The position numbers and the translations under genes were made by a program. From the NCBI RefSeq assembly GCF_037975245.1, contig NC_092576.1, positions 8,279,501 through 8,343,500 of the forward strand: a DNA stretch of 64,000 bases, read 5' to 3'. Shown piece after piece: positions 8,112 to 62,368 of the stretch. The DNA is from Apostichopus japonicus. Its lineage: Eukaryota > Echinodermata > Holothuroidea > Aspidochirotida > Stichopodidae. The notes under the pieces were generated by a model, which had not been told where the DNA came from, did no database searches, and saw only the letters and a program-made list of their open reading frames with translations. The stretch's first letter is position 1. The number at the start of each line of letters is the position of its first letter.

Positions 8112-9621
8112 TTACGTTGGTACGCCTTCACTTATCGACACACAATCTTTCGTACTAACTTTAAAAGTATTAGAAATAGAAACAACGTGATAATAACTAA
8201 ACCGAATGCTAACACCCGACCGTTTATATCATGATCAACTACTGTAGTATCGCCGCTCACTGTAACAGATACAATATGAGTTAATGTTGTTTTCTCGTGA
8301 TCTGTTTCGCATCAATTCAGATTTACTGAGGTGATCCTTTGATTATTGTATTCATTGGGTGTCGCACAACTAGGATAAAAACTCTCTCGAGTAGTAGATA
8401 TTAGTAAATAATCCCTCAAATGAATTGCATGGCAATCGCACTTAATAGGATTACCTAAAAGGTATAATGTTGTATGTGTATGCAAGTTTGCATTCGTATG
8501 CATTCGATTCGGTTTCCAGCCAAATCGAGGAACCGAAGATTGGGATTGTTAGAAAAGAGATTTGGACTCATCGACTCTATCTTATTATATCCAAGTGAAA
8601 GAGCACTTAACTTTTCATTTTGATTAAAAATGTCTCGATCAGCAATTTTTCTAATAAGATTGCCAGACAAGTTAATTAGTTCCACGTTAGGGAACTTTGA
8701 AAAGAATGGTGGAGATATATCTTCTATGAAATTATTTTTTAGTCCAAGATGAACCACTGATGAAGAGTTGTAATTAAACCAATTTATTGGCAAATTTGAA
8801 ATATTATTATGGCTGAGAATGACAGAACGCAGTGACGTGAATCCGTAGAAATAAGCTGAATTTAAGTTGACCAAGTAGTTATTTGCTAATCGTAGATATT
8901 TAAGAGATTTATGGTAAACATATGTTCCAGTAAGAAACACTAACTCGTTGTCATCTAAATAAAGACATTCCAAATTGTGCAGGAAATTAAGTATATTAAG
9001 GGAAAACATTGATATTTTGTTAAAGGATGACTTCAAAATTTTCAGCGAACCAAATCCACGTAATGTATCGTCTTTAACTTCCACCAATCGATTATGCGAT
9101 AAATTCAGGCTTTCTACAGAAGTTGAATGTGCTACAAAATTACCAATATCAACGATACCGTTGTTATTTAAATACAAATTTTTCAAATTCATCACGTCTT
9201 TGAAAATTCTTGTGGGCAGTGTTTCGATATTGTTATAATATATATAAATATTCTTCAATTTCGTCAAATTTCGAAAAACTGTCGAATTAATATCATCAAG
9301 CAATAGCTTACCATTGTTAATAAAGGATAAATCGTTCAAGTTACTCAGATCGGCGAGAAACCGCCAGTCACCATTTTGAATGACTGTTGAGTTACTATTG
9401 GCTATGATCAGATCCGTCAACTAATGAGAGAGTTCCTTTTCAAACTGGTCGGAACTATTTGACATAAGTTTGCTGCAAACTAGATTTGTAGACAACGGAC
9501 AACAGTTGCATGGGGTAGGATTCTCGCATTCATCATATACGTCCCAATATAAACCACAACTATGAGAACACATTTTCAAAACTAAAAATATCAACGTCGT
9601 GAAAATAAAATATTGAGACAT
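8112..9621 (-). pseudogene. LRR receptor copy A, pseudogene
   Basis: This is a member of the window's 506-residue LRR receptor family. The ATG is at 9619-9621, the signal peptide and Cys-rich cap are readable, and the LRRs follow. Lesions relative to intact copies: (1) AAG to TAG at codon 67, just after KELSH; (2) a net 10-bp loss near 8485-8510 that removes the LRR13 segment and shifts frame; (3) AGA to TGA after SVNLN, near 8313; (4) a 1-bp deletion in the last codons. With four independent lesions it cannot make the receptor, although a 66-residue secreted peptide could be made from the first segment. It belongs to the same subfamily as E (SHSCGLYWDVYDEC, LTDLIIANS), and its 5' flank matches E's. 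Confidence 0.92.
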
Positions 9622-9855
9622 TGTCCTTGAAATGATTAAACCTTATTGACCTTTCAGTGGCAAAAGGACTGACCAGTAACGATATGAGTCAAGAGTGTGG
9701 GAGTGTCTGGATATAAACTACCATAACGAACATTTTGAGTGATAAGATCGTAAGCAGAAGGAAACCAGTCTTTGTAGGAAATCATTAAACGATTTTATCG
9801 TTTCTTATAGAACTTACGTACACGTTCCTTCACGTATTCCGCTCACGTGACGTCG
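9622..9855 (-). promoter_or_regulatory. Candidate promoter of LRR-A
   Basis: Conserved 5' segment of the family. TGAGTCA (AP-1 heptamer) is at 9685-9691 and TGACGTCG (CRE-like) at 9848-9855. The latter overlaps CACGTG, an E-box shared only with copy E. No clear TATA box is visible. Confidence 0.4.
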
Positions 9856-10370
9856 TTTCTGTTGTTAGTATCTTCGTTTGTTTCGGATATGAATAGGATT
9901 TTTCTCAGGTTGAAACAAATCTTCTGCTTTCAGGTTACTTGTCACTTGACGATATACAACGCAGAGCTGTTGGCATAGAACTTGTTCTCTCTGGATTGCT
10001 GTGAATCTATTCACTCAATGAAACCAACTTTGGTAGTGTAGTGTCATAAACACCAACACTTCTTCGTATATTTATGATAACATTTATTTTAATACCCAAA
10101 CTCCAAATGTGATCGCATGTGATCACATAACGGACAACAGTTGGACGGGGTAGGATTCTCGCATTCATCATATACATCCCAATATAAACCACAAGCTTGA
10201 GAACACATTTTCAAAACTAGAAATGTCAAAAGTGGGAAAAGGTTTGACCAGTAACAAAAGGAGCTAAGAGTGTGGGAGTGTTCGGATAGAAACTACTATA
10301 ACGGACATATTGAGTAATAAGATCGTCAGCTGGAAGATACCAGTCTTGGATTGGTTATATATTCTGTTTT
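9856..10370 (-). repeat. 5' flank of unit A with fused LRR fragment
   Basis: Matches 43084-43530 of unit E and, more distantly, 22702-22980 of C. At 10117-10128 the palindrome ATGTGATCACAT marks an abrupt junction into an LRR N-terminal relic. After the relic, promoter-proximal sequence (GACCAGTAAC and onward) appears a second time. Confidence 0.7.
10128..10230 (-). pseudogene. LRR N-terminal relic A'
   Basis: About 100 bp matching the signal-peptide end and Cys-rich N-cap of the LRR family (CGLYWDVYDEC region, then PTPSNCC). The start codon and first residues are deleted, and the sequence breaks off upstream at the ATGTGATCACAT palindrome. An equivalent relic sits at 43386-43511 in unit E, so the fusion predates the A/E duplication. 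Confidence 0.8.
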
Positions 10371-11690: not shown

Positions 11691-11945
11691 ATTGACTTAT
11701 ATTGCTACATACGTTGATTGCATTGGTTTAACCTTCACCTCTACTGATATCTCGCAGAGGTATTGTGCATCATTTGTCTGATTTAACGTGAATATTTGAC
11801 TCAGAAAATAAAACTACCTTTAAAAGGCAAGTGTTCAATACCGATTTGAAATGAATTGACAAAATATTTGTTTCTAGGTTTTTATTTCAGCTAAATCACC
11901 TAACCTCAAGACATTAATACTTTGACAGATGATGAAGTGGTGAAC

Positions 11946-12251
11946 GACAGAATACTAGTAATTTCTTTTGATTATAATAAGATAGATTTGATCTTTAATC
12001 AAAATCTTCAACTGCATCTTTTCGATTTTACTGGAAATCAAGTAAAATTTGTTCACGAAAACATATTTCACCACTTACACAGCTATACAGTGTTCACTCT
12101 ATTGGAGACTCCTATTACGTGCGATTGCTATGCTATACACTCGAAAAATTATGTATTAAAGTCTCAATTTCACGATCACCTTTATCTTCAATGTGCCACA
12201 CCAACTGAATACCATGATCAAAAGATCCACATGGTAAACTTTTCACGATGT
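11946..12251 (+). pseudogene. Divergent LRR receptor relic B, opposite strand
   Basis: The plus strand encodes the last LRRs and LRRCT of the family in diverged form: ISFDYNKIDLIF, then LFDFTGNQVKFV, then the cap ETPITCDCYAIHSKN and a spaced C...C ending NFSRC. Alignment to the intact copies starts near LSLEYNKIES and ends at the last LRRCT cysteine. The stalk, membrane helix and tail are absent; the frame closes 19 residues later with unrelated sequence. Upstream the frame has a stop at 11901-11903 and no ATG. Identity is far lower than between A, C, D, E, F and G, so this is an old copy, inverted relative to the others. A pyrimidine tract plus CAG at 11881-11890 could be an acceptor site, but I cannot support a gene. 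Confidence 0.75.
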
Positions 12252-12689
12252 TACACAGTACCTAAAAAGCACCACATTTGCTCACATTGTATGTTTAAAG
12301 ACAGTCGATGACTCAAATTTCAAAGCCAATAATGATACTAAAGCCGGAGATAGCTGTAGGGGGTGCGATTTCTCTGCTATAAGTTGTAATCATGTATTTA
12401 AAATTTATGAAATATATCTTTTGCTATTCGGCTGGTTTAGATGTACCAACTAGTGGACAACAATGAAATAAGGAATCTAATGTAACTCCATTGTATTCCA
12501 TAGTTTCGTTTAAAGGAACGCTTTCATTGAAAATCTGTTGAGTAGAAAACTAAGAACAAATATCGAATGACCAATAAACATTTCCAAATATGCTGATAGA
12601 TACGATCATTAAATTATTCTACCTGTCAATCATCACAAGGTGTTCTAACGTTCAGTATTATCTGTTTTATCAGTATTATCCGAAGAAAT

Positions 12690-20951: not shown

Positions 20952-22472
20952 TTACGTTGGTACGTCTTCACTTATCGACGCACAAACCTTTCTAACTAAC
21001 TTTAAAAGTATTGGAAATAGAAACAACGTGATAATAACTAAACCGAATAGTAACACCCGACCGTTTATATCATGATCAACTACTGTAGTACCGCCGCTCA
21101 CTGTAACAGATACAATATGAGTCAATGTTGTTTTCTCGTAATCTGTTTCACATCTTGTAAAATTTACTGAGCTAATCTTTTGATTATTGTATTCATTGGG
21201 TGTCGCACAACTAGGAAAAAGTGTCTCGTGAGTATTGGACATTAACAAATAGTCTCTCAAATAAATTGCATAGCAATCGCAATTTATAGGATTATCTAAA
21301 AGGTTCAATGTTGAATATCCATACAAGTTGTTTAAAGTGTCAACGTCAAGAAATTCGATTTGGTTTCCAGCCAAATCGAGGAACCGAAGATAAGGATTGT
21401 TAGAAATGAGGTTTGGATTGATCGACTCTATCTTATTATATTCAAGTGAAAGAGCACTTAACTTTGTATTTCGATTAAAAAGGTCTAGATCAGTAATGTT
21501 TTTAATAAGGTTGCGAGACAAGTTAATTTCTTCAACGTTAGGGAAATATGAAAAGAATGGTGAAGAAATATCTTCTATGAAATTATTTGCTATTTCAAGT
21601 TGAACCACTGATGAAGAGTTGTTATTAAACCAATTTATTGGCAAATATGAAATATTATTATAGCTGAGACTGACAGAACGCAGTGACGTGAATCCGTAGA
21701 AATATGCTGAGTTTGAGTTAACCAAGTAATTATTTTTTAATACTAGAGATTTTAGAGATTTATGGTAAACATATGTTCCAGTAAGAAACACTAACTCGTT
21801 GTAACCTAAATCAAGTGATTCCAAATTTTGCAGATACTGAAGTATATTAAGGGAAAATATTGATATCTTGTTCTTGGATAAGTTTAAAGTTTTCAGCGAA
21901 CTAAATCCACGTAGTGTATCGTCTTTAACAACCACCAATCGGTTATGCGATAAATTCAGGCTTTCTACAGAAGTTAAATTTTGAAAAACATTACCAATAT
22001 CAACGATACCGTTGGTACTTAAATATAGGTTTTCCAAACTCATCATGCCTTGGAAAATTCTTGTGGGCAGTGTTTCGATATTGTTATGACTTATGTAAAT
22101 ATTCTTCAATTTCGTCAAATTTCGAAAATATGTCGAATTAATATTATCAAGCAATAGCTTACCATTGTTAATAAAGGATAACTCTCTTAAGTTATTCAGA
22201 CCGGCGAGAAACCGCCAGTCACCATTTTGAATGAATGTTGAATTACTATTGCTTATGACCAGAGCCGCCAATTTTTGAGAGAGTTCCTTTTCAAACTGGT
22301 CTGAACTATTTGACATAAGTTTGCTGCAAACTAGAGTATAATATAACGGACAACAGTTGGACGGGGTAGGATTCTCGCAGTCATCATATACATCCCAATA
22401 TAAACCACACGTTTTAGACCGTATTTTCAAAACTAGAAATGTCAAAGTCGCGAGAATAAAGTATTGAGACAT
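20952..22472 (-). CDS. LRR transmembrane receptor, copy C
   Basis: Intact 506-codon single-exon frame with an ATG in good context (ACA before ATG). Layout: signal peptide at about 1-20; Cys-rich LRRNT with cysteines at 22, 32, 40, 41 and 49; about 13 LRRs of 23-27 residues from 68 to 385 (pattern LxxLxLxxNxL); LRRCT 394-441 with CDC and two further Cys; Ser/Thr/Gly stalk 442-470; membrane helix about 471-490; basic stop-transfer and tail of about 15 residues with a juxtamembrane Cys, ending EDVPT. It has many N-x-S/T sites. By architecture it is a cell-surface pattern-binding receptor of the Toll/VLR-like LRR type. The absence of a TIR domain means signalling would need a partner. Copy-specific residues cluster in LRR7-LRR12 (S242, K246, S268, E293, A295). 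The first 222 codons match D at all but two residues. Confidence 0.9.
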   Translation of the reverse strand: MSQYFILATLTFLVLKIRSKTCGLYWDVYDDCENPTPSNCCPLYYTLVCSKLMSNSSDQFEKELSQKLAALVISNSNSTFIQNGDWRFLAGLNNLRELSFINNGKLLLDNINSTYFRNLTKLKNIYISHNNIETLPTRIFQGMMSLENLYLSTNGIVDIGNVFQNLTSVESLNLSHNRLVVVKDDTLRGFSSLKTLNLSKNKISIFSLNILQYLQNLESLDLGYNELVFLTGTYVYHKSLKSLVLKNNYLVNSNSAYFYGFTSLRSVSLSYNNISYLPINWFNNNSSSVVQLEIANNFIEDISSPFFSYFPNVEEINLSRNLIKNITDLDLFNRNTKLSALSLEYNKIESINPNLISNNPYLRFLDLAGNQIEFLDVDTLNNLYGYSTLNLLDNPINCDCYAIYLRDYLLMSNTHETLFPSCATPNEYNNQKISSVNFTRCETDYEKTTLTHIVSVTVSGGTTVVDHDINGRVLLFGLVIITLFLFPILLKLVRKVCASISEDVPT

Positions 22473-24129: not shown

Positions 24130-24932
24130 TTAGTCATGTCCTTCCTGAATGTTCAGCCCATGAGGTTGAATGGTACGAAGGCGTTGCATCCAGAGCCTCT
24201 CTCTGCTGATACGTACTAGGTCAGGACGGCTACCTAAGGATTCAATCCCCTGTAGGGACATGTCGTTAATGGTATGGTTGGGAAGGTTAAAATGTTCTCC
24301 AACTGGGGTCTCAGTCTTCATGGTGTTGACTGTGGATCTGTGACCATAGAAACGCTTCTTGAGGGTGGTTTTGGTTTCGCCAACATACTGGATGCCGCAA
24401 ACTCTACAAGAGATCAGATAGATGACATTGGTGGTAGTGCAAGTGATGTGACCCTTAGTCTTGTGTGTGAGTTGCATGCTGTGGCTGGTGATGGAATTGG
24501 ATTCAACAATGTGGTGGCTGCAGACGATGCATCTCGAAGTACGATCACATTTGAAGGTACCATGCTGAATGGGTGTGGGGTTAGAAGTAAGAGGTGGAAC
24601 AGCAGCACGTACAAGAAGGTCTCGTAGGTTGCGTGGTCGTCTGTAGGCGATGATGGGTTTTTCAGGGATGGCTCGTTGGAGTCTATCTGAAGTGAGGAGA
24701 ATGTTGTGGTTGTTAGAGGTGATTTTCTGAAGGGGAGGAAGATTTGGGTGGAAAGTAACAACGAGGGGCAGCTTGTTGTCGCAATCTCGTCCCTTTTTGT
24801 CCTTCACTGCCAAAGTAGATGATCTGGAAAGGGAGCGGACTCTCTGAATGGCTACACGCACCCTTCTGGCACTATGGCCCCTGGCAATAAGGTGTTTTTC
24901 CAAAGCATCTGTATGGCGAATGAAAGAGGAAT
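24130..24932 (-). pseudogene. Penelope-like GIY-YIG endonuclease, left copy
   Basis: Open frame from the palindrome centre to a stop at 24130. It carries the C-terminal part of a Penelope-like retroelement protein: a basic linker (RHTDALEKHLIARGHS), a Cys/His cluster (KCDRTSRCIVC followed by H-H), then the GIY-YIG nuclease with IYLISC, IQYVGET (the YIG-equivalent), the catalytic Arg region LKKRFYGHRS, and VGEHFNLPNH. The reverse transcriptase is missing, so this is a truncated passenger. The Cys-rich motif before the nuclease is as in Neptune-type elements. The frame continues past the centre into antisense sequence; those extra N-terminal residues are not real. Confidence 0.85.
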
Positions 24933-24941
24933 ATAATTTTA

Positions 24942-25744
24942 ATTCCTCTTTCATTCGCCATACAGATGCTTTGGAAAAACACCTTATTGCCAGGGGCCAT
25001 AGTGCCAGAAGGGTGCGTGAAGCCATTCAGAGAGTCCGCTCCCTTTCCAGATCATCTACTTTGGCAGTGAAGGACAAAAAGGGACGAGATTGCGACAACA
25101 AGCTGCCCCTCGTTGTTACTTTCCACCCAAATCTTCCTCCCCTTCAGAAAATCACCTCTAACAACCACAACATTCTCCTCACTTCAGATAGACTCCAACG
25201 AGCCATCCCTGAAAAACCCATCATCGCCTACAGACGACCACGCAACCTACGAGACCTTCTTGTACGTGCTGCTGTTCCACCTCTTACTTCTAACCCCACA
25301 CCCATTCAGCATGGTACCTTCAAATGTGATCGTACTTCGAGATGCATCGTCTGCAGCCACCACATTGTTGAATCCAATTCCATCACCAGCCACAGCATGC
25401 AACTCACACACAAGACTAAGGGTCACATCACTTGCACTACCACCAATGTCATCTATCTGATCTCTTGTAGAGTTTGCGGCATCCAGTATGTTGGCGAAAC
25501 CAAAACCACCCTCAAGAAGCGTTTCTATGGTCACAGATCCACAGTCAACACCATGAAGACTGAGACCCCAGTTGGAGAACATTTTAACCTTCCCAACCAT
25601 ACCATTAACGACATGTCCCTACAGGGGATTGAATCCTTAGGTAGCCGTCCTGACCTAGTACGTATCAGCAGAGAGAGGCTCTGGATGCAACGCCTTCGTA
25701 CCATTCAACCTCATGGGCTGAACATTCAGGAAGGACATGACTAA
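24942..25744 (+). pseudogene. Penelope-like GIY-YIG endonuclease, right copy
   Basis: Mirror image of the left copy, the same protein with one Val/Glu difference close to the centre (REAIQ here, RVAIQ on the left). It ends at TAA 25742-25744. The GIY-YIG motifs are intact, but the RT half is absent and there is no natural start codon on this side of the centre. It is followed by a CT-rich 3' UTR of about 300 bp with a 14-C run and the ribozyme-like motif. Confidence 0.85.
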
Positions 25745-29447: not shown

Positions 29448-29992
29448 CTTCTTCTTCAGCCGTTGTCGATCCACTGCTGGATGAAGGCCTCAGCATGATA
29501 TCTCCAACTCTCTCTCTCCCTTGCATGTGTGTACCAATTGGTTTCATTCCAGAATTTCTGTATTTTATCTCTCCATCTCTTTCTTTGCCTGCCTCTGTTC
29601 CTTTCCCCGTCAAGCGGTGTCCATACAGTGGTTAGCGTGCTCCATCTTCCATCTCCCCTTCTAGTGACATGGCCGGCCCATGTCCATTTACGATGTTTGA
29701 TTACTTCCATTATATCCTGTACCTTTGTCTGTTTCCTTATCCACTTATTGGTTTTGTGATCTTTGTATGTTATGTTAAGCATACTCCTCTCCATGTTATG
29801 TTGTGCGGCTGCTAACTTTCTTTCCATTTTAATTGTTAGTGTCCATGTTTCTGATGCATATGTCATTGATGGGAGAATGCATTGGTCATACACTTTCCTT
29901 TTAAGCATAATGGTAGATTGTCCTTCATGATGTGGCTGTATCTGCCAAATGCTTGCCACCCTGCTTTGATCCTCCTCCTTATTTCATTATCT
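29448..29992 (-). mobile_element. 5'-truncated LINE insertion in unit D (family 4)
   Basis: A 545-bp insert bounded by the 13-bp duplication TGAAGAGGAAGTT (29435-29447 and 29993-30005). On the minus strand it encodes a LINE C-terminus: RRIKAGWQAFGRYSH, LKRKVYDQCILPSMTY, SETWTLTIKMERKLA, KWTWAGHVTRRGDGRW, GRQRKRWRDKIQ and a stop, ending directly in a GAA-repeat tail. A 1-bp deletion near 29902 breaks the frame. Sister insertions lie at 51175-51719 and 60048-60593; C, E and A have the empty site. Confidence 0.85.
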
Positions 29993-30245: not shown

Positions 30246-31766
30246 TTACGTTGGTACGTCTTCACTTATCGACACACAAAATTTTCGTACTAACCTTAAA
30301 AGTATTGGAAATAGAAACAATGTGATAACTAATAAACCGAATACTATCACCAGACCGTTTATATCATGATCAACTACTGTAGTACCGCCGCTCACTGTAA
30401 CAGATGTACCATGTGTCAATGTTGTTTTCTCGTGATCTGTTTCGCATCTTTTCAGATTAACAGAGGTAATCTTTTGATTATTGTATTCATTGGGTGTCGC
30501 ACAACTAGGATAAAGTCTCTCGTGAGTATGGGACATCAGTAAATAGTCTCTTAAATGAATTGCATAGCAATCGCACTTAATAGGATTACCTAAAAGGTTA
30601 AATGTTGAATATGTGTACAAGTTGTTTAAAGTGTCGACGTCAAGAAATTCGATTCGGTTTCCAGCCAAATCGAGGAACCGAAGATCGCGATTGTTATAAA
30701 AGAGGTTTGGATTGATCGACTCTATCTTATTATATTCAAGTGAAAGAGCACTTAACTTTTCATTTTGATTAAAAAGGTCTGGATCAGCAAGGTCTTTAAT
30801 AAGGTTGCCAGACAATTTAATTTCTTCAACGTTAGGGAACTTTGAAAAGAATAGTGAATAAATATCTTCTATGAAATTATTTTGAAGTCCAAGTTGAACC
30901 ACTGATGAAGAGTTGTTATTAAACCAATTTATTGGCAAATTTGAAATATTATTATGGCTGAGAATGACAGAACGCAGTGACGTAATTCCGTAGAAATAAG
31001 CTGAATTTAAGTTGACCAAGTAGTTATTTTCTAATACTAGATATTTTAGAGATTTATGGTAAACATATGTTCCAGTAAGAAACACTAACTCGTTGTCATC
31101 TAAATCAAGTGATTCCAAATTTTGCAGATACTGAAGTATATTAAGGGAAAATATTGATATCTTGTTCTTGGATAAGTTTAAAGTTTTCAGCGAACTAAAT
31201 CCACGTAGTGTATCGTCTTTAACAACCACCAATCGGTTATGCGATAAATTCAGGCTTTCTACAGAAGTTAAATTTTGAAAAACATTACCAATATCAACGA
31301 TACCGTTGGTACTTAAATATAGGTTTTCCAAACTCATCATGCCTTGAAAAATTCTTGTAGGCAGTGTTTCGATATTGTTATGACTTATGTAAATATTCTT
31401 CAATTTCGTCAAATTTCGAAAATATGTCGAATTAATATTATCAAGCAATAGCTTACCATTGTTAATAAAGGATAACTCTCTTAAGTTACTCAGACCGGCG
31501 AGAAACCGCCAGTCACCATTTTGAATGAATGTTGAATTACTATTGCTTATGACCAGAGCCGCCAATTTTTGAGAGAGTTCCTTTTCAAACTGGTCTGAAC
31601 TATTTGACATAAGTTTGCTGCAAACTAGAGTATAATATAACGGACAACAGTTGGACGGGGTAGGATTCTCGCAGTCATCATATACATCCCAATATAAACC
31701 ACACGTTTTAGACAGTATTTTCAAAACTAGAAATGTCAAAGTCGCGAGAATAAAGTATTGAGACAT
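30246..31766 (-). CDS. LRR transmembrane receptor, copy D
   Basis: Intact 506-codon frame with the same layout as C: signal peptide, LRRNT Cys22/32/40/41/49, 13 LRRs, LRRCT, stalk, one membrane helix (about 471-490), short tail ending EDVPT. Residues 1-222 differ from C at two sites only (L18 for R, S93 for N), but 223-506 differ at 50 sites and resemble copy G. That makes D a mosaic, best explained by gene conversion or unequal crossing-over near LRR7. Variable residues sit on the exposed beta-strand positions of LRR7-LRR11 (D223, D224, Y242, E246, I268, H271, G293, Q295, K317). It is likely a surface recognition receptor; the ligand is unknown. Confidence 0.9.
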   Translation of the reverse strand: MSQYFILATLTFLVLKILSKTCGLYWDVYDDCENPTPSNCCPLYYTLVCSKLMSNSSDQFEKELSQKLAALVISNSNSTFIQNGDWRFLAGLSNLRELSFINNGKLLLDNINSTYFRNLTKLKNIYISHNNIETLPTRIFQGMMSLENLYLSTNGIVDIGNVFQNLTSVESLNLSHNRLVVVKDDTLRGFSSLKTLNLSKNKISIFSLNILQYLQNLESLDLDDNELVFLTGTYVYHKSLKYLVLENNYLVNLNSAYFYGITSLRSVILSHNNISNLPINWFNNNSSSVVQLGLQNNFIEDIYSLFFSKFPNVEEIKLSGNLIKDLADPDLFNQNEKLSALSLEYNKIESINPNLFYNNRDLRFLDLAGNRIEFLDVDTLNNLYTYSTFNLLGNPIKCDCYAIHLRDYLLMSHTHERLYPSCATPNEYNNQKITSVNLKRCETDHEKTTLTHGTSVTVSGGTTVVDHDINGLVIVFGLLVITLFLFPILLRLVRKFCVSISEDVPT

Positions 31767-35799: not shown

Positions 35800-36289
35800 G
35801 GAATCAAATAAGTAGATTAAGATCTACGGCTCTGTTAAGACCGATGTGACAACGCCCTCTGCCAAATATACCCATTGCTGTTAAGATCAGTGGGGTGGAC
35901 CACAGGTCACTAGGTTAGTTGCGGAATCGAAACATATCAAGTTTTCATATTGGCTGTTGTAACATGGGATTTTTATATAAAGCAAAATGATCATTTTTTT
36001 CGCTATGAATTACTTTATATAAATTGACCTTTTAAACAGAAAACAACACTGTAATTCATTGTGTATTCAGGAAAGTAACAGCAAAACAGAAGATTATCCA
36101 GTCATTTATTGACCCCGAGTTACCTGCAAACAAACTCCAGCCATCATTCATTATCCATAACAATGCAATAGTCGTTTATGATACGAATGAAGATTACTTT
36201 TGTAGATTATCGTGCACAGTTACAGTTAAACATATCAGAGACATGCGCAGAAGATTAAATATTAAAAATAATACAGTGGTCTATACTTT
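35800..36289 (-). repeat. 3' flank of degenerate LRR unit R
   Basis: Matches 59100-59580 (shared GCTGTTAAGATCAGTGGGG). It joins directly to the middle of an LRR relic, so the proximal flank and the whole LRR C-terminus have been deleted from this unit. Confidence 0.7.
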
Positions 36290-37060
36290 TTACCTTTGAA
36301 AACCTTAAAAAGAATGACAAAGAAATATGTTCTATGAAATTATTCAATAGTACAAGATTAGTGATTGATGTTGATTTATTAGTAAACCGATTTGTTGTTA
36401 AATTTTAAATATTATTATAGCCTAGAATTACTTGTTGGAGTGACGGTAAATCGTTGAAATATGCTAAATTGTTTTCACCAGGTGTTATGTTTTAATTGTA
36501 GAAAATTTGAATATTTATGGTAAACATTTGTTCCAATAAGGTACACTAATTTGTTATTATTTTAAATGTAGTTTTCTAAGTTCTTAAGGAAATTAAGTAC
36601 CTTAACTGAAAAGAGTGTTATCTTGTTATAGGATTATATCAGCATTTTAAATGAAATAAAGTCCATGAAGTGCATAGCCTTTTACATATTCCATAGTTCG
36701 ATTGTAGGATAAATTGAGAATTTCTAGAAAACTTAATTTTACTACAAATTTACCAATATCAACTTTAACGTTGTTATGCATGTTAAGACTTTCCAAATTG
36801 ATCAAACCCGAGAATAATTCTGCGGGGATTTGCTCCATATTGTTATGAGCTATGTAAATATTCTTCAATTTTGTCAAATTTCCAAAAATGTCGGATATAT
36901 ATTATCAAGATATTGTCATTGCTGACAATGGATAAATCGTTGAAGTTAATCAGACCGACGATAAACCGCCAGTCACCATTTTGAAGAAGAAAATGTTGAA
37001 TTACTATTGGCTATGACCAGGTCCGTCAACTTATGAGAGAGTTCTTTTGCAAACTGGTTT
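36290..37060 (-). pseudogene. LRR receptor relic R
   Basis: A decayed minus-strand family member. Recognisable LRR2-LRR10 sequence includes TKLKNIYIAHNNMEQIPAELF, LESLNMHNNVKVDIGKF and LEILNLSYNRTMEYV; many stops and indels interrupt the rest. The N-terminal side ends in the conserved region before LTDLVIANS. The C-terminal LRRs, LRRCT and membrane helix are deleted. Residues and nucleotide context are closest to E. The adjacent 37087-37164 is the missing N-cap in inverted orientation. Confidence 0.85.
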
Positions 37061-37086
37061 ACATTGGGATGAATATAACGGATGAG

Positions 37087-37164
37087 AGAAACCTACCCCA
37101 TCCAACTGTTGTCCGTTATCTTTTACTCTAGTGTGCAGCAAACGTATGTCAAATAGTTCCGAAT
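37087..37164 (+). pseudogene. Inverted N-cap fragment of relic R
   Basis: CCTACCCCATCCAACTGTTG through GTCAAATAGTTCCGA reads on the plus strand as the LRRNT coding sequence (about residues 35-58), which in all other copies lies on the minus strand. It is exactly the stretch missing between the relic's LRR1 side and its expected N-terminus. Confidence 0.85.
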
Positions 37165-37420
37165 GCCTACTCTCTATGATTCACATCGGTATTGTTCATT
37201 CCAATAGCAACGTCGTATGTACAAATAGCACACTTTTGTAATACGACGACGTATGCAGCGAGCGACACAGTATAGCTATCGGCAATTTGTTCACGACTTC
37301 TGATTTCGGATTATACGAATGCCCATAAGCTAATTTCCAATTTTCGCACATGTTATCAAATATGCTGGTCGGTTCGAGATACGGTAGATTACGAGACAAG
37401 ATTTCCACAATTTGACCTTT
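37165..37420. other. Unassigned, one possible protein relic
   Basis: A minus-strand 70-codon frame (37196-37408) has no homology I can defend. Its WKLAYGHSYN stretch faintly recalls cathepsin pro-peptides. Confidence 0.2.
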
Positions 37421-41328: not shown

Positions 41329-42849
41329 TTACGTTGGTACGTCTTCATTTATCGACACACAAACCTTTCTGACTAACTTGAAAAGTATTGGAAAAAGAAA
41401 CAATGTGATCATAAATAAACCGAATACTATCACCAGACCGTTTATATCATGATCAACTACTGTAGTACCGCCGCTCACTGTAACAGATGTATTATGTGTC
41501 AATGTTGTATTCTCGTGATCTGTTTCGCATCTATTCAGATTTACTGAGCTAATCCTTTGATTATTGTATTCATTGGGTGTCGCACAACTAGGATAAAGTG
41601 TCTCGTGAGTATGGCACATCAGTAAATAGTCTCTTAAATGAATTGCATAGCAATCGCACTTTATAGGATTATCTAAAAGGTTCAATGTTGTATGTGTATG
41701 CAAGTTGTTTAAAGTGTCAACGTCAAGAAATTCGATTTGGTTTCCAACCAAATCGAGGAACCGAAGATTGGGATTGTTAGAAAAGAGGTTTGGATTGATC
41801 GACTCTATCTTATTATATTCAAGTGAAAGAGCACTTAACTTTACATTTTGATTAAAAAGGTCTGGATCAGCAATGCTTTTAATAAGGTTGCCAGACAAGT
41901 CAATTTCTTCAACGTTAGGGAAATATGAAAAGAATGGTGAAGAAATATCTTCTATGGAATTATTTTTTAGTCCAAGTGAAACCACTGACGAAGAGTTCTT
42001 ATTAAACCAATTTATTGGCAAATTTGAAATATTATTATGGCTGAGAACGACAGAACGCAGTGACGTAAATCCATAGAAATAAGCTGAATTAAAGTTAACC
42101 AAGTAATTATTTGTTAATCGTAGATATTTAAGAGATTTATGGTAAACATTTGTTCCAGTAAAAAACACTAACCCGTTGTCAGCTAAATCAAGTGATTCCA
42201 AATTTTGCAGATACTGACATATATTAAGGGAAAACATTGATATTTTGTTAAAGGATAAGTCCAAAATGTTAAGCGAACTTAATCCACGTAGTGTATCGTC
42301 TTTAACAACCACTAATCGGTTATGCGATAAATTCAGGCTTTCTACAGAAGTTGAATTTGCTACAAAATTACCAATATCAACGATACCGTTGCTATCTAAA
42401 TACAAATTTTTCAAATTCATCACGTCTTTGAAAATTCTTGTGGGAAGTGTTTCGGTATTATTATGATGTATGTAAATATTCTCTAAATTTGTCAAATTTT
42501 GAAAAACTGTCGAATTAATATCATCAAGACATAAGTTACCATTGTTGACAATGGATAAATCGTGCAAGTTAATCAGACCGATGGGAAACCGCCAGTCACC
42601 GTTTTGAAGAAATGTTGAATTACTATTGGCTATGATCAGATCCGTCAACTTATGAGAGAGTTCCTTTGCAAACTGGTCGGAACTATTTGACATAAGTTTG
42701 CTGCAAACTAGAGTTTTAGACAACGGACAACAGTTGGATGGGGTAGGATTCTTGCATTCATCATATACTTCCCAATATAAACCACAACTATGAGAACACA
42801 TTTTCAAAACTAGAAATATCAACGTCGTGAAAACGAAATATTGAGACAT
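41329..42849 (-). CDS. LRR transmembrane receptor, copy E
   Basis: Intact 506-codon frame. The true ATG is at 42847-42849 (MSQYFVFTT); the six upstream codons open only on TTG. Domain layout as in C. It represents the A/E subfamily: N-cap SHSCGLYWEVYDEC, LTDLIIANSNST, and a distinct LRR2 (LHDLSIVNNGNLCLDD) with an extra Cys. The tail has INEDVPT for ISEDVPT. Exposed LRR residues differ from C/D/G (A223, R244, T246, V268, S291, K295, D317). It is the only intact member of its subfamily in the window, since A, A', R and E' are broken. A surface recognition receptor by architecture; ligand unknown. Confidence 0.9.
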   Translation of the reverse strand: MSQYFVFTTLIFLVLKMCSHSCGLYWEVYDECKNPTPSNCCPLSKTLVCSKLMSNSSDQFAKELSHKLTDLIIANSNSTFLQNGDWRFPIGLINLHDLSIVNNGNLCLDDINSTVFQNLTNLENIYIHHNNTETLPTRIFKDVMNLKNLYLDSNGIVDIGNFVANSTSVESLNLSHNRLVVVKDDTLRGLSSLNILDLSFNKISMFSLNICQYLQNLESLDLADNGLVFFTGTNVYHKSLKYLRLTNNYLVNFNSAYFYGFTSLRSVVLSHNNISNLPINWFNKNSSSVVSLGLKNNSIEDISSPFFSYFPNVEEIDLSGNLIKSIADPDLFNQNVKLSALSLEYNKIESINPNLFSNNPNLRFLDLVGNQIEFLDVDTLNNLHTHTTLNLLDNPIKCDCYAIHLRDYLLMCHTHETLYPSCATPNEYNNQRISSVNLNRCETDHENTTLTHNTSVTVSGGTTVVDHDINGLVIVFGLFMITLFLFPILFKLVRKVCVSINEDVPT

Positions 42850-43083: not shown

Positions 43084-43385
43084 TTTCTGTTGTTAGTATC
43101 TTCGTTTGTTTCGGATATAAATAGGATTTTTCTCAGGTTGTAACAGTTCTTCTGCTTTTCAGGTTACCTGTCACTTGACGATATACAACGCAGAGCTGTT
43201 GGCAATGAACTTGTCCTCTCTGGATTGCTGTGAATCTATTCACTCAATGAAACCAACTTTGTTTGTGTAGTGAGATTCAACCCTTAAGGAAAACAACACT
43301 CATAAACACCAACAGTTCTTCGATTATTTATGATAACATTTATTTTAATACCCAAACTCCAAATGTGATCGCATGTGATCACATA
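43084..43385 (-). repeat. 5' flank of unit E up to the fusion point
   Basis: Matches 9856-10127. It ends at the palindrome ATGTGATCACAT (43373-43384), where an LRR N-terminal fragment begins. Confidence 0.7.
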
Positions 43386-43511
43386 ACGGACAACAGTTGG
43401 ACGGGGTAGGATTCTCGCATTCATCATATACATCCCAATATAACCACAAGTTTGCGAAATCATTTTCAAAACTAAAAATGTCAATGTCGCGAAAATAAAA
43501 TATTGAGACAT
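43386..43511 (-). pseudogene. LRR N-terminal relic E'
   Basis: ATG at 43509-43511, signal peptide MSQYFIFATLTFLVLKM, then SQTCG; a 1-bp loss (TATAACCAC for TATAAACCAC) then shifts frame. The homology stops at the palindrome junction. On its other side the 5' flank resumes about 320 bp out of place (AGCAATGAACTTGTCC). It may be transcribed from a neighbouring promoter but cannot make a receptor. Confidence 0.85.
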
Positions 43512-44060: not shown

Positions 44061-44690
44061 GGTATTAACGTTGATATACCAGGGCAGGTAATGTTATCTG
44101 GGTAAAACAAAATTCAAACGTGAACGTGTTCTAGACCCTTGACTTTACTGAAGGTAAAGCTAGCATAAATCGTCTGACCAAAATTCACGATGGTGGCATT
44201 TTTCGTTTCCGTGTAGTGAAGCTACTACGTATATGCCGATTTGAAGAGTCTTCAGGACCAAGTAAGAATCCGTATCACGTTCATGAAAACAAATCTTCAC
44301 CATTCCATCAGTATTGTCACATTACGATGTATGTATGATTCTGAGCAACCTAGTAGTTATGTCTCCAAGTTTGTTTTCTTTGTATTTCTCGATTTTGTTC
44401 TTTTGTTGAAAACCAAAAGGTGGTGCAAACACATCCAGATTTCCGACAACAAATAACCTGATGCCTCGATATTTTCTTGCAGTGAAGGCTTGGACTTTTA
44501 ACAACATGGATTCACGTATTATATTAAAAGACTTGTTAGCAAAATCAAGTTTTAATGAATCAAAATAGACAACTAGGAATTTAAAATAGCCGCTTCGTCG
44601 TACTACGGCCGTCTTCAGTAAAGTCATTAATAGGACAAAGTAGGAGAATGAGTATTCCTCTATTCTCTATGTTTCTACTGCATGATTACT
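44061..44690. other. Unassigned, possible Penelope 3' relic
   Basis: On the minus strand ACTGAAGACGGCCGTAG followed by ACGAAGCGGC (44590-44625) resembles a Penelope hammerhead-like end. Open frames of 71 and 101 codons overlap on opposite strands without recognisable motifs. Confidence 0.3.
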
Positions 44691-44750
44691 TCATTAGTCT
44701 TCAATATAGGATACTATCTAATTTGCCATTACATTTCGTGGTGCCATGAT

Positions 44751-45200
44751 ATTTATATTCAAAATACGTTTATCCTTCTTTTAGCAATTAATTATCTTCT
44801 TATAAAAGATTTTCTGTGCTCCAGGTGTTGCCCAGGCACTTCAATTTGTCAATACGTTTGTTTTAATTTTGCTTGTCTTTGTTTTTTTGATGGGCAAAGT
44901 ATTTATATTCAAAATACGTTTATCCTTCTTTCAGAAATTAATTATCTTCTTATAAAAGATTTTCTGTGCACCAGGTGTTGCCCAGGCACTTCAATTTGTC
45001 AATACGTTTGTTTTAATTTTGCTTGTCTTTGTTTTCTTGATGGGCAAGGTATTTATATTCAAAATACGTTTATCCTTCTTTCAGCAATTAATTATCTCCT
45101 TATAGAAGATTTTCTGTGCACCAGGTGTTGCCCAGGAACTTTAATTTGTCAATACGTTTGTTTTAATTTTCCTTTTTTTGTGTTTTCTTGATGGGCAAAG
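44751..45200 (+). repeat. 150-bp tandem repeat, three copies
   Basis: Units 44751-44900, 44901-45050 and 45051-45200 each begin ATTTATATTCAAAATACG and end near TGATGGGCAAAG. The period is exactly 150 bp, so an open frame of 50-residue repeats survives by arithmetic. The inverted paralogue at about 14600-14760 has one unit. Confidence 0.9.
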
Positions 45201-45914
45201 TAATTTTTTCTACTGGATTATATCTCTTCATCGCCTCTTTATGTAAAGCCCATTCCTGTGCAAGAACCACAGAGAGGTTTGTTTTGATGAGCTTGATGTA
45301 CTCATAAATTGATAACATCAGTATTTGACGAAACAAGAATCAACTAACTACCTTTTTCATTTCAGCTAACATAAATTCAACCCAATATGAACGTAAGTAT
45401 TTGTTAATGTTATTGTATAGGTTAGAACTTCATAATACGATAACTATAAACAGCAAACCTAATTATTAGATGATATAAAGTAATTAATGCATACATAAAC
45501 CGTTATACGATTAATGTTATTGTTGCAGTTATTCAAGACCATTTTAAAATTATGTGCAATGTCTACGATATATTTAAAAACATTGAATCAAAATACTTGT
45601 TTCCAAATGTTGATAATAAAGAAACATATATTTTAAAATTGTATAACTTAATAGTCAATCATTATATCTCATTTTGTTCATACAAAACTGTTTTCCAATT
45701 CACATTGAGATGGAATCTGTATGGATTGGCAGTCTTCGGTTCTTGATACAAGACACCATATTGACTAGGAAAATAATTAGAAGGCATTCAACTCCCGTCC
45801 TGCAACACGAAAAGGATAGATAATGATGAAAAAAATCAAGCCAAAAAGAATACTTTAATATAAGCAACAACGTGGCAGAATTTACTAACCTATTTGAATT
45901 AAGGTAATCGTCCC
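45201..45914. repeat. Spacer matching the LRR 3' flank
   Basis: Inverted match to 13860-14500. 45540-45770 also resembles the receptor 3' flank at 6840-7110 (AATAAAGAAACATATATTTT). It is probably the remains of another unit. It ends exactly where a hAT-like terminus begins. Confidence 0.6.
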
Positions 45915-51973: not shown

Positions 51974-53499
51974 TTACGTTGGTACGTCTTCACTTATCGA
52001 CACACAAACTTTTCGTACTAACCTTAAAAGTATTGGAAATAGAAACAATGTGATAATAAATAAACGAAAACTATCACCAGACCGTTTATATCATGATCAA
52101 CTACTGTAGTACCGCCGCTCACTGTAACAGATACAATATGAGCCAATGTTGTTTTCTCGTGATCTGTTTCGCATCTATTCAGATTTACTGAGCTAATCTT
52201 TTGATTATTGTATTCATTGGGTGTCGCACAACTAGGATAAAGTATCTCGTCAGTATAGGACATTAGTAAATAGTCTCTTAAATGAATTGCATAGCAATCG
52301 CACTTTATAGGATTATCTAAAAGGTTCAATGTTGTATATCCATGCAAGTTGTTTAAAGTGTCAACGTCAAGAAATTCGATTTGGTTTCCAGCCAAATCGA
52401 GGAACCCAAGATTGGGATTGTTAGAAAAGAGGTTTCGATTGATCGACTCTATCTTATTATATTCAAGTGAAAGACCACTTAACTTTATATTTTGATTAAA
52501 AAGGTCTGGATCAGCAAGGTTTTTAATAAGGTTGCCAGACAAGTTAATTTCTTCAACGTTAGGGAAATATGAAAAGAATGGTGAAGAAATATTTTCTATG
52601 GAATTATTGTTTAGTCCAAGTGAAACCACTGATGAAGAGTTGTTATTAAACCAATTAATTGGCAAATTCGAAATATTATTATGGCCGAGAATGACAGCAC
52701 GCAGTGACGTGAATCTGTAGAAATATGCTGAATTTGAGTTAACCAAGTAATTATTTGCTAATCGTAGATATTTAAGAGATGCATGGTAAACATATGTGCC
52801 AGTAAAGAACACTAATTCGTTGTCATCTAAATCAAGTGATTCCAAATTTTGCAGATACTGAAGTATATTAAGGGAAAACATTGATATCTTGTTATTGGAT
52901 AAGTTCAAAGTTTTCAGCCAACTAAATCCACGTAGTGTATCGTCTTTAACAACCACCAATCGGTTATGCGATAAATTCAGGCTTTCTACAGAAGTTAAAT
53001 TTGGAAAAACATTACCAATATCAACGATACCGTTGTTACTTAAATATAAGTTTTCCAAACTCATCACGCCTTGGAAAATTCTTGTAGGCAGTGTTTCGAT
53101 ATTGTTATGATATATGTAAATATTCTTCAATTTCGTCAAATTTCGAAAATATGTCGAATTAATATTATCAAGCAATAGCTTACCATTGTTAATAAAGGAT
53201 AACTCTCTTAAGTTACTCAGACCGGCTAGAAACCGCCAGTCACCATTTTGAATGAATGTTGAATTACTATTGGCTATGATCAAATCCGTCAACTTATGAG
53301 AGAGTTCCTTTTCAAACTGGTCGGAACTATTTGACATAAGTTTGCTGCAAACTAGAGTATGATATAACGGACAACAGTTGGACGGGGTAGGATTCTCGCA
53401 TTCATCATATACATGCCAATATAAACCACAAGTATGAGAACACATTTTTAAAACTAGAAATGTCAATATCGCGAGAATAAAGTATTGAGACATTGTCAT
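51974..53499 (-). CDS. LRR receptor copy F with frameshifted C-terminus
   Basis: Signal peptide, N-cap, 13 LRRs, LRRCT and stalk are intact. A 1-bp deletion (one C of AAACC, near 52064) shifts frame inside the membrane helix. The frame then ends at 52024 after 491 codons, while the ancestral stop is at 51974. The new end after NGLVIVF is VYLLSHCFYFQYF: still hydrophobic, with no basic stop-transfer or EDVPT tail. F could therefore still be membrane-anchored, or be mis-sorted. It starts at ATGACAATG (53499 or 53493). The N-cap resembles the E type (SHTCGLYWHVYDEC, LTDLIIANS) but LRR1-LRR7 resemble C/D/G, so it is a subfamily mosaic. Exposed LRR residues include A244, S291 and N295. It may be a young pseudogene or a tail-less variant. 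Confidence 0.8.
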
Positions 53500-53728: not shown

Positions 53729-54905
53729 TTTCTGTTATAATTCATTTATGACGGATATTACAATTATTGTTTGATACAAGTTTGATACATTTCTTCTGCT
53801 TTCCAAGTTACCTTTAATTTGCGGATATACAATGCAGAGCTGTTAGGAATGAACATGTCCTCTCTGGATCGCTGTGAAGGTATTCACCCAATGAAACCAA
53901 CATTTGGTAATGTAGTGATATTTAACCTTATAGAATCAACATGGATCAAATCCAACAGTTCCTTGGAGAATTATGATAACATATATTTTAATACACAAAC
54001 TCCAAATGTGTTGAAAATCGATGGCTATCAAAAGTCGAAAATAGGAAGAGCAGTCCTCCCCAAAAAGGTGTATTCATCTGGAGGTGAGGTGTAAACATCA
54101 CCCGTATACACAGAACAAATATTCTTGTTAGCACAACAGAGAGATGAATAAATTAGCGTCGATACACCAGGACATTGTAATACATTTTGTAATACATATT
54201 TCCTCCACAAAATTGTCTTTCCAAAAATGTCTTAGTTGCATGAAAAATCAATGAGGTTACTTGTCCATAGAATAAATCTCTTTAAGGCAATCATATGCAG
54301 TTGTAATAGTCGCATCGATACACCAGAACTGAGTTAGTATTAACGTTTATATACCAGGACAGTTAAGCAAAGACACTGAAATTATGTTTTCCAGCACAAA
54401 TTCCTCTTTGTAATTTTTCCGTCAGTTCCATGAAAGAATATATTAGCTACATTCAAGAATAGTGAAAACATTTACTTTGACACAACAAGGTTGAGATGGA
54501 AATAGCTGCGTTGATACAATAACATGTCCAGGACTAAAGTTCACGTTGATCCATCAGAATGGTGCATAACACATCAAAATATTAGTATGTTGGATGTCGT
54601 AAAAATATTCACTTAAATCCTCCTTCTAGTTATGATAAACAAAAAAGTAACACTGGTAAGTTCATGCTTCATTCTCATAAATAATTCAAATAACATGTCC
54701 AGGACTAAAGTTCACGTTGATCCATCAGAATGGTGCATAACACATCAAAATATTAGTATGTTGGATGTCGTAAAAATATTCACTTAAATCCTCCTTCTAG
54801 TTATGATAAACAAAAAAGTAACACTGGTAAGTTCATGCTTCATTCTCTCCTGGTATTAAAGTAAAAAAAAAGAAGGTTTAAGAATAATCAGGAGACAGCC
54901 GCAAA
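53729..54905 (-). repeat. 5' flank of LRR unit F with internal duplication
   Basis: As in C, D and G, except that 54520-54676 is repeated at 54691-54847 (157 bp, apparently identical) with a 14-bp spacer ATAAATAATTCAAA. The duplication is unique to F. Confidence 0.8.
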
Positions 54906-56627: not shown

Positions 56628-56639
56628 AATAAAAACCAA

Positions 56640-57407: not shown

Positions 57408-57665
57408 TCTTTTCTTCTCTCCATCCCTCCTCTACTGATCCTCTTACCTTTTCTCTTTGTGTTCCTTCTGCTTATTAACCTGTCTGTATTTTGTTTGTGT
57501 ATTTGTCCCTTCTGTTACTGTAACTTGTCATTTAGCCACGAAAGAAGATCCTACTTCAATTGAAACGTCAAGTCCTCTTACTTTTTCACATTCTCTTACA
57601 CAGGCCCTTCAGTGGATAAGCAGTTTGCTAACAGTTTTGTCTTATTTTAAAATAAAACATGTCTA
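57408..57665 (+). mobile_element. Penelope-like 3' end, diverged
   Basis: Same order as 48190-48480: CT-rich segment, TGTTACTGTAACTTGTCATT, decayed ribozyme core (CGAAAGAAGATCC, then TTGAAACGTC), then AAGCAGTTTGCTAACAG. The CTGAAGA box is mutated to CGAAAGA. Confidence 0.7.
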
Positions 57666-60047: not shown

Positions 60048-60593
60048 CTTCTTCTTCAGCCGTTGTCGATCCACTGCTGGATGAAGGCCTCAGCATGATA
60101 TCTCCAACTCTCTCTCTCCCTTGCATGTGTGTACCAATTGGTTTCATTCCAGAATTTCTGTATTTCATCTCTCCATCTCTTTCTTTGCCTGCCTCTGTTC
60201 CTTTTCCCGTCAAGCCGTGTCCATACAGTGGTTAGCGTGCTCCATCTTCCATCTCCCCTTCTAGTGACATGGCCGGCCCATGTCCATTTACGATGTTTGA
60301 TTACTTCCATTATATCCTGTGCCTCTGTCTGTTCCCTTATCCACTTATTGGTTTTGTGATCTTTGTATGTTATGTTGAGCATACTCCTCTCCATGTTATG
60401 TTGTGCGGCTGCTAACTTTCTTTCCATTTTAATTGTTAGTGTCCATGTTTCTGATGCATATGTCATTGATGGGAGAATGCATTGGTCATACACTTTCCTT
60501 TTTAAGCATAATGGTAGATTGCCCTTCATGATGTGGCTGTATCTGCCAAATGCTTGCCACCCTGCTTTGATCCTCCTCCTTATTGCATTATCT
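60048..60593 (-). mobile_element. LINE insertion in unit G (family 4), best-preserved
   Basis: The 546-bp insert has one continuous frame from its truncated 5' end to the stop at 60056: GWQAFGRYSHIMKG, LCLKRKVYDQCILPSMTY, SETWTLTIKMERKLA, WAGHVTRRGDGRW, GRQRKRWRDEIQ, RESWRYHAEAFIQQW. It has no RT or endonuclease and only a GAA tail after the stop. The right duplication is at 60594-60606. Confidence 0.85.
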
Positions 60594-60847
60594 TGAAGAG
60601 GAAGTTAAATTATGATAATTTGACTTATTCCTCAACGATAATTTCTATTTGAACGAATACAAAAAGTGATAAATTCTCAACAGAACCATTATTTTCTGAA
60701 ATGAAGTTTCTTTAAAGGAGTAAACTATATGCAAATTGTGAAAGGCTCAAGAAAATAGTCCTCTTGTTATCACTAACTTTATATCATTGGTGAAACCTGG
60801 GTAGATTAGGTTAAATTGTTGACGAACAACTTTCTGTACATTTGCAG
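60594..60847 (-). repeat. 3' flank of LRR unit G, proximal part
   Basis: The poly(A) hexamer is altered here: TATAAA on the minus strand (60778-60783) where the other copies have AATAAA. Confidence 0.6.
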
Positions 60848-62368
60848 TTACGTTGGTACGTCTTCACTTATCGACACACAAACTTTTCGTACTAACCTTA
60901 AAAGTATTGGAAATAGAAACAATGTGATAATAAATAAACCGAATACTATCACCAGACCGTTTATATCATGATCAACTACTGTAGTACCACCGCTCACTGT
61001 AACAGATACAATATGAGTCAATGTTGTTTTCTCGTGATCCGTTTCGCATCTATTCAGATTTACTGAGCTAATCTTTTGATTATTGTATTCATTGGGTGTC
61101 GCACAACTAGGATAAAGTCTATCGTGAGTATAGGAAATTAATAAATAGTCTCTTAAATGAATTGCATAGCAATCGCACTTAATAGGATTATCTAAAAGGT
61201 TCAATGTTGTATATCCATGCAAGTTGTTTAAAGTGTCGACGTCAAGAAATTCGATTCGGTTTCCAGCCAAATCGAGGAACCGAAGATCGCGATTGTTATA
61301 AAAGAGGTTTGGATTAATCGACTCTATCTTATTATATTCAAGTGAAAGAGCACTTAACTTTTCATTTTGATTAAAAAGGTCTGGATCAGCAAGGTTTTTA
61401 ATAAGGTTGCCAGACAAGTTAATTTCTTCCACGTTAGGGAACTTTGAAAAGAATGGTGAAGAAATATCTTCTATGAAATTATTTTTTAGTCCAAGTTGAA
61501 CCACTGATGAAGAGTTGTTATTAAACCAATTTATTGGCAAATTTGAAATATTATTATGGCTGAAATTGACAGAACGCAGTGACGTAATTCCGTAGAAATA
61601 AGCTGAATTTAAGTTGACCAAGTAGTTATTTTCTAATACTAGATATTTTAGAGATTTATGGTAAACATATGTTCCAGTAAGAAACACTAACTCGTTGTCA
61701 TCTAAATCAAGTGATTCCAAATTTTGCAGATACTGAAGTATATTAAGGGAAAATATTGATATCTTGTTCTTGGATAAGTTTAAAGTTTTCAGCGAACTAA
61801 ATCCACGTAGTGTATCGTCTTTAACAACCACCAATCGGTTATGCGATAAATTCAGGCTTTCTACAGAAGTTAAATTTTGAAAAACATTACCAATATCAAC
61901 GATACCGTTGCTACTTAAATATAGGTTTTCCAAACTCATCATGCCTTGGAAAATTCTTGTGGGCAGTGTTTCGATATTGTTATGATATATGTAAATACTC
62001 TTCAATTTCGTCAAATTTTGAAAATATGTCGAATTAATATCATCAAGCAATAGCTTACCATTGTTAATAAAGGATAACTCTCTTAAGTTACTCAGACCGG
62101 CGAGAAACCGCCAGTCACCAGTTTGAATGAAGGTTGAATTACTATTGCTTATGACCAGAGCCGCCAATTTATGAGAGAGTTCCTTTTCAAACTGGTCGGA
62201 ACTATTTGACATAAGTTTGCTGCAAACTAGAGTATAATATAACGGACAACAGTTGGACGGGGTAGGATTCTCGCAGTCATCATATACATCCCAATATAAA
62301 CCACACGTTTTAGAACATATTTTCAAAACTAGAAATGTCAAAGTCGCGAGAATAAAGTATTGAGACAT
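60848..62368 (-). CDS. LRR transmembrane receptor, copy G
   Basis: Intact 506-codon frame; signal peptide, LRRNT (Cys22/32/40/41/49 plus Cys18), 13 LRRs, LRRCT, stalk, membrane helix and EDVPT tail as in C. The C-terminal half is the closest match to D (about 23 differences in 284 residues, against 50 between D and C); the N-terminal half differs from D at eight sites. Distinctive exposed LRR residues are N268/F269 in LRR9, K295 in LRR10 and N317 in LRR11. The CRE-like site upstream is mutated and the poly(A) signal is a variant, so expression may differ from its sisters. Probably a functional surface receptor; ligand unknown. Confidence 0.9.
   Translation of the reverse strand: MSQYFILATLTFLVLKICSKTCGLYWDVYDDCENPTPSNCCPLYYTLVCSKLMSNSSDQFEKELSHKLAALVISNSNSTFIQTGDWRFLAGLSNLRELSFINNGKLLLDDINSTYFQNLTKLKSIYIYHNNIETLPTRIFQGMMSLENLYLSSNGIVDIGNVFQNLTSVESLNLSHNRLVVVKDDTLRGFSSLKTLNLSKNKISIFSLNILQYLQNLESLDLDDNELVFLTGTYVYHKSLKYLVLENNYLVNLNSAYFYGITSLRSVNFSHNNISNLPINWFNNNSSSVVQLGLKNNFIEDISSPFFSKFPNVEEINLSGNLIKNLADPDLFNQNEKLSALSLEYNKIESINPNLFYNNRDLRFLDLAGNRIEFLDVDTLNNLHGYTTLNLLDNPIKCDCYAIHLRDYLLISYTHDRLYPSCATPNEYNNQKISSVNLNRCETDHEKTTLTHIVSVTVSGGTTVVDHDINGLVIVFGLFIITLFLFPILLRLVRKVCVSISEDVPT

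Follow-up and report, generated by a model that had tools for sequence, protein, structure and literature searches.

What might a membrane receptor do that exposes a long recognition surface outside the cell and keeps almost nothing inside it? The question is raised by a tandem family of leucine-rich repeat (LRR) genes in a 64,000-nucleotide stretch of the genome of the sea cucumber Apostichopus japonicus (C16:8279501-8343500; hereafter, the window), which had been described from its sequence alone as a cluster of 'VLR/Toll-like' receptors (VLR, variable lymphocyte receptor) with no signalling domain (the original prediction) and was followed up here with genome-wide searches of all 35 contigs (671,581,487 bases). 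Open reading frames and tblastn matches bear out the predicted six large copies on one strand (C, D, E and G intact, F frameshifted, A dead) plus five relics, all of one family (Table 1). The array runs on to the left of the window with a further intact copy (C16:8260202-8261719; hereafter, the outside copy) and a broken one (C16:8250439-8251882). The family combines an LRR membrane architecture and an absent signalling domain with tandem birth and death, mosaic copies and amino-acid change on the concave face. We consider it probable, at roughly 0.6, that these genes form part of a germline-encoded recognition repertoire of membrane receptors, 'LRR-only, Toll-like' in kind, which owes its diversity to birth-and-death and to gene conversion and which signals through a partner.

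In each intact gene, one coding frame specifies a signal peptide, a cysteine-rich N-cap, an LRR solenoid, a C-cap, a stalk, a membrane helix and a very short tail; the signal peptide was judged by eye, and two of the five intact copies (L004 and L006) fail the hydropathy cut-off there. Copies C, D, E and G encode exactly 506 amino acids each, all on the minus strand, and the three others are 94, 90 and 82% identical to G. A motif scan recognised 12 canonical LRRs and the strand list of the structural model gives 14 solenoid strands, so that the 13 repeats counted earlier are a fair figure between the two. By a hydropathy rule, the cytoplasmic tail is 13-16 residues long in the five intact copies, and it ends in EDVPT in the four window copies, as had been noted, and in EDAPT in the outside copy. 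The original prediction had also regarded the N-cap as unfamiliar. Pfam lists no N-cap or C-cap model up to E 5 for a window protein or for three members of other arrays, and because the models are missing for those members too, their absence does not make the window N-cap unusual; its five invariant cysteines (residues 22, 32, 40, 41 and 49) are nevertheless spaced unlike those of the other arrays.

The AlphaFold model, of modest confidence (mean predicted local distance difference test score, pLDDT, 61.6), shows an LRR solenoid and a helix at the C terminus. By sequence, the best match in the PDB is LRIG1 (E 9.3e-38), with the acid-labile subunit, LRRC15 and Toll-like proteins also among the best. 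By fold, VIA-align places Toll (4bv4; Z 27.9, root mean square deviation 3.4, 354 residues aligned), TLR3 (1ziw; Z 27.7, 3.7, 357) and LGR4 (4li1; Z 27.7, 4.2, 347) in a tie at the top, with LRIG1 also among the top rows and LINGO-1 and LRRTM2 among the matches; a family's absence from these lists does not exclude it. In Foldseek, the top match is the LRR domain of a bacterial Roco protein (5il7, template modelling score 0.41 on the query), followed by TLR8, and the fold comparison therefore shows the LRR class and not the family.

The predicted lack of a signalling domain held up. For the four window copies, Pfam lists LRR families alone, and none of the 13 genomic TIR matches (E <= 0.001, a threshold at which weak matches may be missed) lies on C16, while seven of them lie at C9:23.38-23.80 Mb. 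Splicing of the window frames to a TIR domain on the same chromosome was rejected on this ground and, to judge from the genomic sequence, is unlikely, although a weak match can escape such a search. A 1350-residue frame of a related gene at C16:14584724 was considered as a signalling-domain fusion and rejected, as it crosses a run of N. Separately, four LRR-rich open frames of about 1280 amino acids were seen at C3:7726045-7855918, with no TIR match on C3.

Within the window family, replacements concentrate on exposed positions of the concave face, defined as the outward x positions of LxxLxLxxNxL (+1, +2, +4, +6 and +7). In pooled pairwise comparisons of the five intact copies, the proportion of nonsynonymous differences (pN) was 0.121 at concave codons vs 0.047 at other LRR codons, a ratio of 2.60 (p = 0.0002 by permutation, the smallest value that the test can give). 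The proportion of synonymous differences (pS) was 0.026 and 0.096, respectively; with so low a concave pS, few synonymous changes underlie the raw concave pN/pS of 4.62, and concave pN over the family-wide pS (0.092) gives a ratio of about 1.3. The pN ratio was likewise raised in the C16:14-15 Mb array (3.17, p = 0.0002) and the C19 array (2.33, p = 0.0008), in a scan that dropped L041, cut too short, and that included a few false repeats from the helix stretch and the C-cap in these two arrays.

Codon models with fixed site classes and shared branch lengths were fitted to five of the nine arrays, excluding the helix, leaving one C-cap stretch in the C19 array and omitting L053, which has the same protein as L052. 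For the window family, with an overall omega (the ratio of nonsynonymous to synonymous rates) of 0.80, omega was 1.72 at concave positions and 0.67 at the rest (two-class p = 4.8e-7; concave vs 1, p = 0.0071), and shifting the labels by 8, 12 and 16 residues gave 0.37, 0.59 and 0.92. Concave omega was 1.88 in the C16:14-15 Mb array (nine genes, p = 0.0012; shifted labels 0.34, 0.48 and 0.39), 2.92 in the C11 array (five genes, p = 0.004; rest 1.10) and 1.92 in the C13 array (five genes, p = 0.016). It thus exceeds 1 in four of five arrays at p < 0.05 uncorrected, and in three of five after correction for five tests. As a control, four TLR genes of the C9 cluster gave 0.57 at concave positions and 0.38 at the rest, which are indistinguishable (p = 0.24). 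Both the pN counts and the codon model strengthen the recognition role proposed originally.

The copies also differ in blocks. In 90-base windows, the outside copy is 99-100% identical to G over about the first 600 coding bases and 97-100% identical to C beyond them (one window 94%), and the first part of C is 98-100% identical to D. Among 77 informative sites in the outside copy, 13 consecutive sites up to base 458 are G-like; from base 668 the runs are C-like, except for five G-like sites that form three short runs (runs test p about 5e-5, the lowest value attainable). The other three comparisons show clustered runs as well (p 4.5e-4 or less). Judged by these comparisons, the copies are recombinant mosaics, and neighbours appear to have exchanged halves of the solenoid in the germline.

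The window family proved real but not isolated, as several other arrays of tailless LRR genes in this genome are related to it. Searched against the whole genome, copy G has many full-length matches beyond its own array, at 23-28% identity and in frames of about 440-550 residues. Arrays on C11, C13, C16 (14.6-15.1 and 27.5-28.1 Mb), C19 and C22 share roughly 28-35% mutual identity; with members of three other arrays as queries, the more distant groups are the C18 array, at 25-31% and often with partial matches, and the window family, at 25-27%. By hand count, the genome holds at least 45 intact single-frame LRR-helix genes, where intact means no internal stop and a full-length match, one of the 45 is cut by a gap near its end, and the total is a lower bound since the searches scored the best candidates only. 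Five of them fall at C16:8.26-8.34 Mb, nine at C16:14.58-15.12, seven at C16:27.49-28.06, five on C11, seven at C19:4.70-4.78, five on C13, four at C18:17.36-17.37, two on C22 and one at C19:27.87. Among the 45, all 42 examined have tails of 1-36 residues without a YxxL/I/V motif. Three genes of the c16b group (L012, L015 and L016, C16:27.49-27.75 Mb) have a one-residue tail by the rule, and their hydrophobic end could be a glycosylphosphatidylinositol (GPI) signal just as well as a membrane helix.

In a tree of 36 rows, every array with at least two members forms one group, most of them fully supported (window family 100/100), on long stems that meet in a nearly star-like centre, which points to separate local expansions. 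The junction of the window family with the other arrays is not resolved within this star of long stems, and the branch that separates the arrays from the TLRs has a weak support of 58/87 among long branches, with one mcc and one scc TLR included. By full-length alignment, one frame, a single C-terminal helix and a short tail, the window family fits the LRR-helix superfamily of this genome, a grouping that is defined here by architecture and for which the tree does not resolve a single ancestor. Within it, two LRR gene pairs about 30 kb apart at C16:28011783-28058158 have identical scores, suggesting either recent segmental duplication or a region assembled twice. Two other LRR genes (L043 and L044) were left out of later analyses; L044 (C19:8799000-8801000) encodes 449 amino acids, its predicted helix spans 319-337, which leaves about 110 residues for the tail, and related matches occur at C19:1.65-1.70 and 8.65-8.80 Mb.

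How do these genes compare with known receptors? They share the LRR ectodomain of Toll-like receptors (Pfam LRR_8, with Toll and TLR3 among the top fold matches), but we rejected membership of that family because the proteins have no TIR and none of the 13 TIR matches is on C16. In lampreys and hagfish, germline VLR genes are incomplete and are assembled somatically, whereas the intact sea cucumber copies are already complete 506-amino-acid frames in the germline, and VLR membership was rejected on this germline evidence. Of the label 'VLR/Toll-like', the LRR ectodomain stands, and the VLR half is a resemblance only: VLRs (reviewed in PMC13428168) likewise have a capped LRR solenoid, variable concave beta-strand positions and exchange between related sequences, and in the window family such positions are hypervariable between gene copies and not between cells. 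A VLR-like system, in which relic fragments would serve as donors for gene conversion both across generations and in coelomocytes and each animal would carry more variants than its germline, strikes us as very improbable.

An LRR ectodomain without a TIR makes the family an LRR-only Toll-like protein in the usage of PMC8609888, which describes a Hydra LRR-only protein that associates with a TIR-only protein and activates the Toll pathway; unlike these proteins, the sea cucumber genes number in the tens, stand in tandem arrays, include mosaics and diversify on the concave face. Amphioxus FrLRR, according to PMC10199209, is a membrane-attached LRR receptor without a cytoplasmic tail that binds bacteria and stimulates Grb2-dependent phagocytosis, although the link to Grb2 is unknown; it is, however, a unique gene, and its product carries a folate-receptor domain, has few LRRs and is predicted to contain a GPI site. 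The window family, by contrast, ends in a helix and a charged tail and lies in an array. Its resemblance to LRIG, LINGO and LRRTM proteins extends to an LRR ectodomain with a single helix; it differs in its expansion in arrays and in having no Ig family after the LRRs by Pfam, even at E 5. The Cf-type LRR receptor-like proteins of plants form tandem arrays, have an LRR ectodomain, a helix and a short tail, signal through partners, and show concave diversification and mosaic exchange; they belong to another kingdom and LRR class, and the likeness would be convergence.

A diversifying concave face together with almost no cytoplasm most likely means that variable ligands are bound and the signal is handed to a partner. 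In the repertoire that we favour, the concave face would bind variable non-self ligands, most likely microbial, the receptor would sit on coelomocytes or epithelia, and a partner with a cytoplasmic domain would carry the signal or trigger uptake. Over evolutionary time, exchange between tandem copies would bring the N-terminal and C-terminal halves of the binding face into new combinations. Several points weigh against this explanation. AlphaFold confidence is low in both caps (pLDDT <50 at residues 1-57 and 393-483), which are not modelled. In two arrays, C16:14-15 and C19, the permutation test on pN/pS did not reach significance (p = 0.094 and 0.11, respectively), and concave omega in the C19:4.7 Mb array (six genes) was 0.89 and not above 1 (p = 0.58). 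In the C11 array, an overall omega of 1.42 means that two of the three label shifts likewise give values above 1 (1.56 and 1.79, neither significant). Moreover, recombination between copies violates the single-tree assumption of the codon model, and the TLR control comprises four genes only, with 16 repeats recognised.

Tandem copies and a binding-face omega above 1 would suit any recognition arms race, and gamete proteins of marine broadcast spawners evolve rapidly; the receptors could thus serve gamete or allo-recognition, their concave faces tracking a co-evolving self ligand and not microbes. We regard this as possible but unlikely, as the many separate arrays with differing N-caps and tails suggest a broad repertoire over one ligand pair. 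Somewhat more doubtful is that they are decoys or inhibitory receptors, which, lacking a TIR, would damp the signal by binding ligands or by dimerising with the few TLRs: the missing TIR, the tail of 13-16 residues and an LRR fold common to TLR ectodomains fit, but the 45 intact genes outnumber the 13 TIR matches, and the tree, with weak support, does not place the window family with the two TLR types included. That LRIG1 is the best PDB sequence match, with LINGO-1 and LRRTM2 among the fold matches, would suit adhesion or neural-type LRR proteins expanded locally with no arms race, an improbable reading given a concave omega above 1 in four of five arrays, frequent dead copies, mosaics and the lack of an Ig domain in the Pfam lists. 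Finally, two broken copies among the six large ones, five relics and the overall omega of 0.80 might be taken as signs of non-functional duplicates decaying under relaxed constraint alone; yet values of 1.72 on the concave face, 0.67 elsewhere and 0.37 in the +8 register are not a uniform 1, and five copies hold full frames despite protein divergence of up to 18%, which makes simple decay hardly credible.

Table 1. Copies and relics of the LRR receptor family in the window, in order of position.
Feature	Position	Strand	Description and basis
Copy A	8115-9621 (approximate)	-	Dead, several stops and a frame change; tblastn
Relic	10128-10241	-	N-terminal fragment spanning residues 6-43, upstream of copy A; tblastn
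Relic	11943-12257	+	Last LRRs and C-cap (residues 335-443), 46% identity; tblastn
Copy C	20952-22472	-	Intact, 506 amino acids; start D-like, later part like the outside copy (C16:8260202)
Copy D	30246-31766	-	Intact, 506 amino acids; open frame
Relic	36279-37059	-	Middle LRR pieces, 47-66% identity to G; tblastn
Relic	37056-37211	+	N-terminal piece (residues 23-77), inverted; tblastn
Copy E	41329-42849	-	Intact, 506 amino acids; most divergent intact copy, 82% to G
Relic	43384-43511	-	N-terminal fragment spanning residues 1-43, upstream of copy E; tblastn
Copy F	51977-53499	-	Frame lost inside the membrane helix; open frames and tblastn
Copy G	60848-62368	-	Intact LRR receptor gene, 506 amino acids; Pfam LRR_8 E 6e-44

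In copy F, the open frame at 52024-53499 encodes 491 amino acids, and residues 476-506 continue in another frame at 51977-52069 with 97% identity to G. Two short frames that are similar to each other lie just downstream of copies D and G (29456-29983 and 60056-60604, respectively, both on the minus strand); by eye they resemble the tail end of a retroelement polymerase, although Pfam lists nothing for 29456-29983, and they seem to have been duplicated together with the gene. Near-identical frames of 298 amino acids at 24130-25026 (-) and 24848-25744 (+) overlap head to head as an inverted pair and match GIY-YIG (E 3e-5 and 5.5e-5); we take the pair to be probably a Penelope-like retroelement. 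Tandem repeats occur at 54518-54847, in the upstream region of copy F (171-base unit, 1.9 copies, 100% matches), and at 44750-45202 (150-base unit, three copies, 95% matches), where the repeat keeps a 169-amino-acid frame open (44682-45191). Elsewhere in the assembly, contig C35 consists of 16,099 bases of mitochondrial DNA; conserved positions of its cox1 agree with AAA as Asn, AGA as Ser and ATA as Ile, as in the echinoderm code, and its genes, as read here from the open frames, run cox1-nd4L-cox2-atp-cox3-nd3-nd4-nd5-nd6(minus)-cytb ... nd1-nd2. A small contig also carries COX1 pieces in broken order (C29:14745-31219), which are either mitochondrial DNA inserted into the nuclear genome or an artefact of assembly.

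Accounts of echinoderm immunity usually centre on large sets of TLRs, NOD-like receptors and scavenger receptors. In this genome, 13 TIR matches stand against the 45 hand-counted intact single-frame LRR-helix genes, and in four of five arrays the binding face changes faster than in the four TLR genes tested. The genes are a receptor set that is 'LRR-only' in the sense of PMC8609888, and by their scale, single-frame arrays and site pattern we count them as a new variant among such receptors; no earlier description of the arrays was recognised in our searches of the open-licence PMC literature. If they are immune receptors, the lineage invests much of its recognition diversity in receptors that are separate from signalling. 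Recognition is separated from signalling also in plant receptor-like proteins and agnathan VLRs. Should this hold true, signalling by tailless LRR receptors would become testable in a farmed and easily sampled animal.

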